From Bacteroidales bacterium (lineage in GTDB: Bacteria > Bacteroidota > Bacteroidia > Bacteroidales > Muribaculaceae), in the NCBI GenBank assembly GCA_022768005.1, contig JALEMF010000012.1, forward strand, positions 1-32,062: DNA of 32,062 bases, in the 5' to 3' direction. The notes below the pieces were generated by a model. It made no database searches and had not been told where the DNA came from. It saw only the letters and a list, made by a program, of their open reading frames with translations. This document shows positions 1-2,380 of this stretch, one piece after another (positions within the stretch are counted from its first letter, which is position 1; each line of letters opens with the position of its first letter). Both the position numbers and the translations under genes were made by a program.

Positions 1-75
1 CATTTGTCAATAAGGAAGGCGGCAGAGCAACTCGGAGTATCAAAATCAACTGTTGGCAGATGGGTTAATAATTAA
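1..75 (+). CDS. C-terminal fragment of a helix-turn-helix protein (5' end outside window)
   Basis: Frame 1 reads HLSIRKAAEQLGVSKSTVGRWVNN* with a stop at 73-75. The 'S(I)RKAAEQLGVSKSTVGRWV' stretch looks like an HTH recognition region. Confidence 0.6.
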   Translation, partial: HLSIRKAAEQLGVSKSTVGRWVNN

Positions 76-82
76 ATCAGTC

Positions 83-136
83 CTTGTCTCGTTTGTCCCA
101 CGAGACAGACGTGAGACAGTGGGACAATGGGACAAG
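83..136. repeat. GACA-type repeat cluster with inverted repeats upstream of the DUF6371-like gene
   Basis: TGGGACAA at 120-127 and 128-135. GAGACAG at 102-108 and 113-119. Inverted TTGTCCCA at 93-100. TGTCTCG (85-91) pairs with CGAGACA (101-107). Confidence 0.7.
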
Positions 137-236
137 TTTTACACTCATCTATGATATTGCCTTTACCGCAGACTGAATATATCCAAGGCAATCCTCCTCT
201 CTCCATATATCACCTTTTCATTAATAATTAAACAAA

Positions 237-1262
237 ATGATTAACTATGATTTTCACCTTGACAAGACATCGCGGAAATATATCTGCCCGCATTGTCATC
301 GCAAAACGTTTGTCCTATATTTGGACTCTCAGAACAAGATTCTTTCACCTGAAGTTGGTAAATGTGACAGACTCGATAAGTGTAACTATCACTATCCTCC
401 CCGTCAATTCTTTGAAGAACATTTATCGCTATCGCCCCGAGTCCATAAAGAAATCCGTACTTTCCCCCAAAAAACTACAGTACCCTTACCCTCTTTTATC
501 CCTCGAGAATACGTGGAAAATACCCTTTCAGCCTATAATCAGAATTCACTTTACAGATTCCTGGCTCACGCGTTTAGGAAAGTCCTTCAGAAAAAACATA
601 TTGATGAGGTAGTGAGTGACTATATGCTCGGCACTGCCAAGATGTACGGCGGCAGCCCCGTGTTTTGGCAAATTGACAGGCTCGGAAGAGCGCACACTGG
701 CAAGATTATGGGCTACGACGATACCGGTCACCGCATTAAGAATCCTCATCCGCTGATGCAATGGGCGCATACGGCACTGAAAGACCGCTTAGACGGAGAT
801 TTTACTCTGTCGCAGACTTTCTACGGTGCACACCGTCCGCGAGCTGATAACACTGTCTATTGGCTCTTTGAAAGCGAGAAAACTGCACTTATCACGGCTC
901 TTGCCCTTAAGTGCTGCGGCGAGGCGGAGTACCGCCGATTTATCCCTATCGCAGCAGGCGGCTGTGAAGGTTTTAATCCCACACCCGAAGCAATGAGCAA
1001 CCGTAATCATCGTATTCAACTCCTTAAAGGGCAACGATTAGTACTCTTTCCCGATAATGGAAAATACGAGCATTGGAAACTCCGTGCCGGTCTCGCAAAG
1101 CGATTCTGCAAGAGCGTGAAAGTATCCACAATCCTTGAGCCTCAAATCCACAGGACATATTATCCCAAAGTACCCGTCAATCCTTCCGATGACCTCGGTG
1201 ATATTATCCTGGGTTACCTTGAAGCAGGGCTTGACGTCACGGAACTTGTGACATTCTATTAA
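237..1262 (+). CDS. DUF6371-like protein: N-terminal Cys/His zinc finger and C-terminal TOPRIM-like segment
   Basis: 341-aa ORF with CPHCHRKTF...KCDRLDKCNYH (zinc-ribbon/CHC2-like) and FESEKTALITAL...AAGGCEGF...RLVLFPDNG (TOPRIM-like). Family assigned by recall. Confidence 0.75.
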   Translation: MINYDFHLDKTSRKYICPHCHRKTFVLYLDSQNKILSPEVGKCDRLDKCNYHYPPRQFFEEHLSLSPRVHKEIRTFPQKTTVPLPSFIPREYVENTLSAYNQNSLYRFLAHAFRKVLQKKHIDEVVSDYMLGTAKMYGGSPVFWQIDRLGRAHTGKIMGYDDTGHRIKNPHPLMQWAHTALKDRLDGDFTLSQTFYGAHRPRADNTVYWLFESEKTALITALALKCCGEAEYRRFIPIAAGGCEGFNPTPEAMSNRNHRIQLLKGQRLVLFPDNGKYEHWKLRAGLAKRFCKSVKVSTILEPQIHRTYYPKVPVNPSDDLGDIILGYLEAGLDVTELVTFY

Positions 1263-1306
1263 GCAAAAAGGCGAAAAGGGCTGAAAAGGGCAAAAAGGCT
1301 TTGAAA

Positions 1307-1340
1307 GTCAGACAGGTCGGACAAGTCAGACAGGTCTGAC
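1307..1340. repeat. 9-bp tandem repeat GTCAGACAG/GTCGGACAA/GTCAGACAG/GTCTGAC
   Basis: Direct reading: units at 1307-1315, 1316-1324, 1325-1333 and a partial unit at 1334-1340. GTCAGAC-AG-GTCTGAC at 1325-1340 is a perfect palindrome. Confidence 0.85.
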
Positions 1341-1344
1341 TTTT

Positions 1345-1390
1345 ACCACAAAAATACCAAACAGATTGCCACAAAAACACCAAACGAAAT
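1345..1390. repeat. Two copies of a 23-bp tandem repeat
   Basis: accacaaaaataccaaacagatt (1345-1367) and gccacaaaaacaccaaacgaaat (1368-1390), 18/23 identical. Confidence 0.7.
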
Positions 1391-1403
1391 ACCGATATTC
1401 TTT

Positions 1404-1444
1404 GTCTGTCCGATGCTGAAGAATGTGCGCCATCGGGGAGCCTC
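1404..1444. repeat. Dispersed direct repeat, copy A
   Basis: gtctgtccgatgctgaagaatgtgcgccatcggggagcctc. Closely matches copy B at 1542-1584. Confidence 0.75.
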
Positions 1445-1541
1445 TGAGGTGAAATGTATGGGACAGTGTCCCAAGTGTCCGGGCATCTATCGTGGGACAG
1501 TGGGACAGACAACATCATCAAGGAAAGTCGGAGTGAGTGAG

Positions 1542-1584
1542 GTCTGTATCTGATGCTGAAGAAGTTACGCCATCGGGGAGCCTC
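1542..1584. repeat. Dispersed direct repeat, copy B
   Basis: gtctgtatctgatgctgaagaagttacgccatcggggagcctc. A partial third copy, gtctgtccctgatactgaagatg, begins at 1681. Confidence 0.75.
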
Positions 1585-1840
1585 GGTGAGGCTCGGCTGT
1601 AAGAAACACCGTATAAGCACGCAGTGCGCCATGCGGTGACACAATGCCCTCACTCCCCACTCGCACCTCGGGGAGGTGCGGTCTGTCCCTGATACTGAAG
1701 ATGTAGTCTTTACATGTAATTCTTATACTTTAAGTAAAATCACCGTACTGAGCAACACCCGAAAAGAAAAATTTCCGGCAAAATGGGGAGAGTATTCAGG
1801 AAATATCTCTAACTTTTTAAGATATTAAAAAAAAGACGAT

Positions 1841-2380
1841 ATGGCAAACGATACAATACAGGAATTCGATGCGGCTATCAAGAGATGCCGTGAACTATAT
1901 GTGGCAAAATTAGGCGATTACGGACCATCATGGAGGATAATGCGCCCTTGCAGTATTACAGACCAAATTTTTATCAAAGCAAAGCGTATCCGTCAGATAG
2001 AGGAGACGGGAGTGTCAAAAGTAGGCGACGGTATTCTCGGAGAGTTTATTGCTATCGTCAATTATGGCATCATGGGGCTTATACAGCTGTCAAAAGGGTG
2101 GAGCGACACTAAGGATATTTCTTCACAAGAGGCTGTTGCACTCTACGACAAATATATGAATGAAACTCGCGAACTGATGATATCAAAGAACCATGACTAC
2201 GACGAAGCGTGGCGCGGAATGAGAATCTCCAGTTACACAGATTTTATCCTGATGAAAATAGAACGCACCAAGGAGATAGAAAATCATTCCGGTGAAACGT
2301 GTGTATCCGAAGGTATTGATGCCAACTATAAGGATATGGTGAACTATGCCATTTTCGGCATCATAAAACTCAGCGAATAA
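1841..2380 (+). CDS. DUF1599-like protein (nucleotide-modification-associated domain type)
   Basis: 179-aa ORF. Internal duplication: YVAKLGDYGPSWRIMRPCSITDQIFIKAKRIRQIEE versus MISKNHDYDEAWRGMRISSYTDFILMKIERTKEIE. Confidence 0.8.
   Translation: MANDTIQEFDAAIKRCRELYVAKLGDYGPSWRIMRPCSITDQIFIKAKRIRQIEETGVSKVGDGILGEFIAIVNYGIMGLIQLSKGWSDTKDISSQEAVALYDKYMNETRELMISKNHDYDEAWRGMRISSYTDFILMKIERTKEIENHSGETCVSEGIDANYKDMVNYAIFGIIKLSE

Follow-up and report, generated by a model that had tools for sequence, protein, structure and literature searches.

A repeat array between the genes for a helicase-like RepA and a primase-like DUF6371 protein is a predicted replication origin in Bacteroidota

Results

A layout that recurs in Bacteroidota consists of a gene for a helicase-like ATPase (RepA), inverted arrays of a 6- to 7-bp core repeated every ~9 bp, and then usually a DUF6371 gene, and the sequence of the core varies together with the C-terminal helix-turn-helix (HTH) of RepA. 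We consider it likely that the core array consists of iterons bound by the RepA HTH and that RepA, array, and DUF6371 form a compact replication module. The array would then probably be a replication origin; we infer both this function and its binding by RepA from sequence comparisons.

Repeat copies cluster around RepA and DUF6371

The window analyzed here is the whole of contig C108 (32,062 nucleotides), which is cut inside its upstream gene, RepA. The first-pass annotation had described GACA-containing repeats on both sides of the DUF6371 gene, and when we rechecked each position, all of them agreed with the sequence. The core array (83 to 136, forward strand) consists of two inverted copies (TTGTCTCG at 84 to 91 and TTGTCCCA at 93 to 100) followed by four direct copies (CGAGACAG at 101 to 108, TGAGACAG at 112 to 119, and TGGGACAA at 120 to 127 and again at 128 to 135). 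It begins 8 bp past the RepA stop, and DUF6371 starts at 237. Further copies lie downstream, namely TCAGACAG (1308 to 1315 and 1326 to 1333), TCGGACAA (1317 to 1324), TGGGACAG (1459 to 1466 and twice in 1493 to 1508), TGTCCCA (1467 to 1473), and GTCTGTCCC (1681 to 1689).

The octamer KSRGACAR occurs 22 times in the window compared to 13.5 ± 3.9 expected, a count reached in 2 of 100 shuffles. Across a genome sample of 1.45 Mb (70% of 2.06 Mb, taken in stretches), the single octamer was found 591 times compared to 594 to 628 times in order-3 Markov sequence, which is chance level with no enrichment. On the other hand, clusters of at least three motif copies within 40-bp steps numbered eight in this sample, at six distinct places, while five simulated genomes yielded 1, 0, 0, 0, and 0. 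Four of the six places belong to this locus (upstream of RepA on contig C99, 93 to 135, 1308 to 1333, and 1459 to 1508), and the other two are on contigs C51 and C133. Since the single motif is at chance but clusters are in excess, the observation is confirmed as clustering and not as genome-wide enrichment. With tight clusters found essentially only around this locus, the proposal of a local repeat set withstood the genome-wide density comparison. The array in the window taken alone scored 4 in a strict inverted-6-mer shuffle test (p = 0.25), which is below the pass because its copies are degenerate. Its hairpin potential is -27.4 kcal/mol (z -3.7).

An assembly branch coincides with the array

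The first 141 bases of the window (1 to 141) recur unchanged at the end of C99 (L032 7317 to 7457) and at the start of contig C29 (L030 1 to 141), a pattern typical of an assembly branch at k=141. Past the 3' end of RepA and the array, two continuations were assembled, DUF6371 on C108 and a lipoprotein-like region on C29, and a branch exactly at the array suggests strain variation or a rearrangement there. We also considered a two-copy RepA/DUF6371 locus as the explanation of this junction and ruled it out, as the genome holds no second copy of either gene. Upstream of RepA on C99 lies another array, which contains GGGACA and TGTAACA units. The same genome carries arrays without RepA ("solo" arrays) on C51 (L031 1 to 127) and on C133 (L034 6570 to 6631), and bases 1 to 119 of C51 are the exact reverse complement of the array that precedes RepA on C99.

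RepA and DUF6371 resemble a helicase and a primase

Only the C-terminal 24 codons and the stop of RepA lie in the window (1 to 75, forward strand), and the whole gene is on C99 (L032:6408-7391). Read across the C99 junction, RepA is a 327-aa ATPase with an AAA_25 domain and a C-terminal HTH whose recognition helix is VSKSTVGRWV. The HTH gene previously proposed at the start of the window is in fact the 3' end of this AAA_25 ATPase gene, the rest of which lies on C99. Searching the PDB by sequence returned weak RecA-fold matches only for RepA and nothing for DUF6371, and since these searches were uninformative, we turned to structure prediction. The AlphaFold2 model of whole RepA (pLDDT 87.6) contains the C-terminal HTH, and its nearest folds in structure comparison are T7 gp4 helicase, DnaB, RadA, and KaiC (E down to 6e-13), which points to a gp4/DnaB-like protein with predicted helicase activity. 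A single-protein scan of viral contigs with the RepA of the window found no relative.

The DUF6371 gene (237 to 1262, forward strand) encodes 341 aa with a zinc ribbon and a TOPRIM-like domain and matches Pfam PF21957 and PF19898 and NCBIfam PG0870_Nterm. Four zinc cysteines (C17, C20, C43, and C49) and the TOPRIM-like residues E212 and D273 are invariant in the alignment. The best fold matches of its AlphaFold2 model (pLDDT 91.1) are T7 gp4 primase (1nui) and DnaG RNA polymerase domains, with E about 1e-4 and TM 0.3 to 0.5. These invariant residues and modeled folds bear out the first-pass reading of DUF6371 as a zinc-finger/TOPRIM-like, primase-like protein, and we predict a gp4/DnaG-like primase activity for it. 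Judged by the models, RepA and DUF6371 look like gp4 divided into two proteins, with an extra HTH on the helicase.

Arrays at the RepA stop are conserved, with varying cores

To score arrays at RepA stops, we used 68 RepA loci, which include near-duplicates (47 remain at <85% identity). An inverted 6-mer array score of at least 6 was found at 39 of the 68 stops compared to 1 among 400 control gene ends. By shuffling, p <= 0.01 was reached at 43 of the 68 loci, and 9 lack a clear array (score <= 3). Copies on the same strand are most often spaced 9 bp apart, with 90% of spacings within 8 to 11 bp, and the usual order is three copies in one orientation followed by three in the opposite one, although the arrays of L249 and L397 are almost wholly in one orientation. 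The core unit differs by lineage and includes TGGGACA, GTGAACA, TGAAACA, TGGACA, TGTAACA, GGTAACA, GATAACA, GGAAAAC, and others. Seven other loci carry a second array of the same motif upstream of RepA, as on C99, and four loci have strong predicted hairpins (z -3.7 to -6.9). An independent scan of GTDB genomes for a GACA-array pattern identified five loci directly at RepA/DUF6371 genes (L302, L305, L314, L316, and L328), which include Bacteroides bouchesdurhonensis and two uncultured Bacteroidia metagenome-assembled genomes (MAGs).

The flanks of DUF6371 homologues therefore do carry arrays: a lack of repeats at homologous loci holds for the literal TGGGACA word only, and the gaps carry other core sequences. 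The earlier picture of a set defined by repeats on both sides of DUF6371 is not supported in that form; the conserved site is directly after RepA, and sometimes also before it.

The core motif co-varies with the RepA HTH

To relate the arrays to RepA, we built one motif matrix per locus and compared motif similarity with HTH similarity, controlling for AAA-domain identity in a partial Mantel test. Motif similarity tracked HTH identity in 32 loci (partial r = 0.405, p = 0.0002), a value from which phylogeny is only partly removed, and the correlation was weaker in the most distant pairs (r 0.06 to 0.19 at AAA identity <40%). An earlier measure, the cosine of motif k-mer counts, which the matrices replaced, gave a weaker correlation in the same direction. 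When blocks of RepA were scanned, the partial r was 0.41 for residues 306 to 327, 0.12 for 292 to 305, and -0.04 for the linker (261 to 291), and the zinc ribbon of DUF6371 reached 0.16 after accounting for the HTH. Since the covariation is confined to residues 306 to 327, the HTH at RepA's own C-terminus most likely binds the core array, as far as such comparisons can indicate. Co-inheritance of the neighboring HTH and array could add to the correlation, but with hitch-hiking of adjacent sequence a raised signal would be expected in the linker too, and the flat linker argues against this as the whole cause.

Individual helices follow the same pattern, with helix classes drawn post hoc: GTGAACA arrays accompany 9 of 9 S[LV]GxV helices and 0 of 38 other helices, and GGACA arrays accompany 10 of 18 [SGP]K[ST] helices and 2 of 29 other helices. 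The pair in the window, helix SKSTVGR and array GGGACA, fits this grouping.

The module is found in Tn4555 and between ordinary chromosomal genes

The published gene list of Tn4555, an integrative mobilizable element (IME) with cfxA, includes an AAA ATPase and DUF6371 (PMC13183296, Table 4). In PLSDB, we found a Bacteroides fragilis record, circular and 10,057 bp long, that carries an AAA ATPase, DUF6371, a mobilization protein, cfxA, an integrase, and an excisionase; judging from the sequence record, this gene set is that of Tn4555. At its RepA-DUF6371 junction (L369), TGGGACA occurs three times inverted and three times direct, which is the sole such cluster in the record. The window resembles it in having an AAA_25 ATPase with a C-terminal HTH (46% identical to the protein of the circle) followed by a zinc-ribbon DUF6371, with an inverted TGGGACA array at the 3' end of RepA (83 to 136) whose copies are more degenerate. 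Tn4555 differs in having integrase, excisionase, TnpA/TnpC, and mobilization genes, whereas no integrase, excisionase, relaxase/mobilization, or partition gene was seen among the genes adjacent to the module of the window. The adjacent downstream genes match DUF1599, BT_3928/MauE-like, RuvA, and SprA in Pfam, and by eye the open reading frames of C99 resemble acyl carrier protein, ketosynthase, and NAD(P)HX repair genes. In several relatives (including L235, L240, L247, and L249), RepA with or without DUF6371 likewise stands alone between apparently ordinary chromosomal genes, as read by eye. With no integrase or relaxase nearby, the "integrated element" of the first-pass annotation holds only in the sense of a stand-alone module or remnant, and the module of the window may be a remnant or domesticated.

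Copies downstream of DUF6371 belong to the module less clearly

Downstream of DUF6371, a secondary array of 9-bp period (GTCAGACAG-GTCGGACAA-GTCAGACAG-GTCTGAC) spans 1306 to 1340 and a secondary GGGACA cluster (TGGGACAGTGTCCCA ... TGGGACAGTGGGACAGAC) spans 1459 to 1510, both on the forward strand. The segment holding 1459 to 1510 recurs in the genome, twice on C99 and also on C107 and C51. Bases 1555 to 1705 are a separate, species-specific dispersed intergenic repeat with 49 to 57 matches in its own genome, often at contig ends; it contains three hairpins (GAGCCTCGGCGAGGCTC; CACCGTATAAGCAC...GTGCGCCATGCGGTG; GCACCTCGGGGAGGTGC) and ends in GTCTGT. This repeat was absent from seven congeneric genomes, and an Rfam search of window positions 1 to 2000 gave no match. 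The downstream copies are thus real clusters, as first proposed, but a large part lies within a dispersed repeat of this species, and 1306 to 1340 and 1459 to 1510 are less clearly part of the module than 83 to 136.

Discussion

Proposed mechanism and alternative explanations

For positions 83 to 136, the conserved layout beside a helicase-like and a primase-like protein and the motif-HTH covariation favor the initial proposal of an iteron or operator set that serves replication. In the mechanism that we propose, the RepA HTHs would bind the inverted iterons, spaced ~9 bp apart, that follow their own gene, and this binding would set the gp4/DnaB-like ring at the array. Since the ring would be placed there by its own HTHs, the helicase would act as its own origin-recognition factor. 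Adjacent AT-rich DNA or an extruded hairpin would then be opened, and the zinc-ribbon/TOPRIM protein would lay primers. In Tn4555-type elements, the module would copy the excised circle. Points that speak against this mechanism are the loci lacking a clear array (9 of 68), the array-free G033 paralogues, the solo GGGACA arrays found away from RepA, and the absence of integrase, relaxase, and partition genes among those adjacent to the module of the window.

The main rival is that the RepA HTH acts on the array as an operator, repressing or timing transcription of DUF6371 and the genes downstream with no origin role. The position of the array just upstream of DUF6371 and the second array upstream of RepA in some loci suit this explanation, and the HTH covariation is compatible with any binding role. 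However, at least six tandem and inverted copies appear excessive for an operator, the array is accompanied by a helicase and a primase, and the analogous arrays after the rep genes of SaPI and SGI1 are origins (PMC7581432 and PMC7826253), so that we regard a purely regulatory role as improbable, although autoregulation by RepA and an origin role may coexist. Strong hairpins predicted in four loci (z -3.7 to -6.9) would agree with a folded RNA or single strand, such as an attenuator/terminator or a primase-loading hairpin, being what matters in place of protein sites on duplex DNA. For a hairpin, though, it is enough that the two arms pair, and one unit need not be repeated within each arm at ~9-bp steps; some arrays (L249 and L397) are nearly all in one orientation, and the HTH covariation would be left unexplained, which makes this quite unlikely.

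A further possibility is that the arrays flanking RepA mark the ends of a small mobile element with a RepA-dependent route of transposition or recombination. Arrays on both sides of RepA in the window's genome and seven other loci, modules standing alone between ordinary chromosomal genes, solo arrays, and an assembly branch that falls exactly on the array and leads to contigs with and without DUF6371 all fit, but neither RepA nor DUF6371 has a nuclease or recombinase domain by Pfam or fold comparison, and we think it very unlikely. We give least credence to unrelated low-complexity repeats of the genome that merely cluster near DUF6371. This would account for the part of the downstream copies that lies in a dispersed repeat and may hold for 1306 to 1510, but for 83 to 136 it is contradicted by the phylum-wide conservation of position and spacing and by the HTH covariation.

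Relation to known replication systems

The replication module favored here most likely works like SaPI Rep-ori from unrelated parts, by analogy, and is not a member of that group. The C-terminal domains of SaPI Rep and SCCmec Cch2 recognize iterons directly downstream of their own genes (PMC7581432, citing Ubeda et al. 2007), and these systems share with ours a helicase initiator, iterons 3' of its gene, a primase alongside, and residence on a mobile island. As in SaPI/PICI elements, the iterons found here lie immediately 3' of the helicase gene that would act as initiator. The SaPI/SCC helicases are DUF927/Cch-like and D5/Primase_Cterm-like, and the primases are AEP-type or polymerase-like CCPol; here, in place of a SaPI Rep or D5-type helicase with an AEP primase, Bacteroidota have an AAA_25 helicase of gp4/DnaB-like type that bears a small HTH, and its partner is a zinc-ribbon TOPRIM protein of DnaG/gp4-like type. 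Helicase-linked origin recognition is also seen in the pri-rep-ori of Gram-negative PICIs and in phage P4 alpha/ori-crr (PMC6092414), but P4 alpha fuses primase and helicase, which here are separate proteins of other folds. SGI1 is comparable as a mobilizable element with an iteron origin ~50 bp after the repA stop; unlike our module, SGI1 has a Rep_3-type RepA without a helicase and four 16-bp direct repeats with DnaA boxes (PMC7826253).

In our loci, recognition appears to be fused to the helicase. The RepA-RepB-RepC system of IncQ/RSF1010 likewise combines an AAA_25-type hexameric helicase, a dedicated primase, and an iteron oriV, but leaves recognition to a separate iteron-binding protein, RepC, and ~20-bp iterons. 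Neither an IncQ-type RepC nor ~20-bp iterons were found in the inspected loci, where the spacing is 8 to 11 bp and no third gene is conserved.

Iteron origins read by their own helicase are thus already known, and what our data support as new is a phylum-wide, co-diversifying helicase-iteron-primase module. We are evenly divided over whether it constitutes a new Bacteroidota replicon family, with a gp4/DnaB-like helicase carrying an origin-reading HTH, a split-off gp4-like primase, at least eight iteron codes, and both Tn4555-type and stand-alone mini-module forms, of which solo iteron sites in the same genomes could be non-autonomous followers. The maintenance of excised mobilizable elements was called unexplored in 2017 (PMC5704250), and SGI1 was the first reported example of helper-induced IME replication in 2021 (PMC7826253). 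For Tn4555, a widely spread resistance element, and its relatives across Bacteroidota, our findings predict the location of the origin and the pairing of protein domain with DNA site. The naturally occurring HTH helices and the iteron codes that match them allow direct tests of protein-DNA specificity and of element incompatibility, and the uncharacterized DUF6371 family gains a likely role as a primase, as the models suggest.

Related arrays and RepA-like genes elsewhere

Three loci (L073, L076, and L077) have DUF6371 beside a different helicase-like partner (DUF3987-like, read by eye), and their gaps hold inverted short-repeat arrays of TGCAA/TGCATT type, so the layout may extend beyond RepA. 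One genome (G033; L088 and L091 to L102) contains 14 RepA-like matches, possibly a domesticated expansion; the nine paralogues scored for arrays have C-terminal tails but no arrays. Bacteroidales also carry solo GGGACA arrays with no RepA in the vicinity, and in two Bacteroidales MAGs (L281 609 to 774 and L322 1634 to 1793), such arrays face each other ~145 bp apart across sequence very rich in AT, an arrangement that resembles a minimal origin lacking a rep gene.
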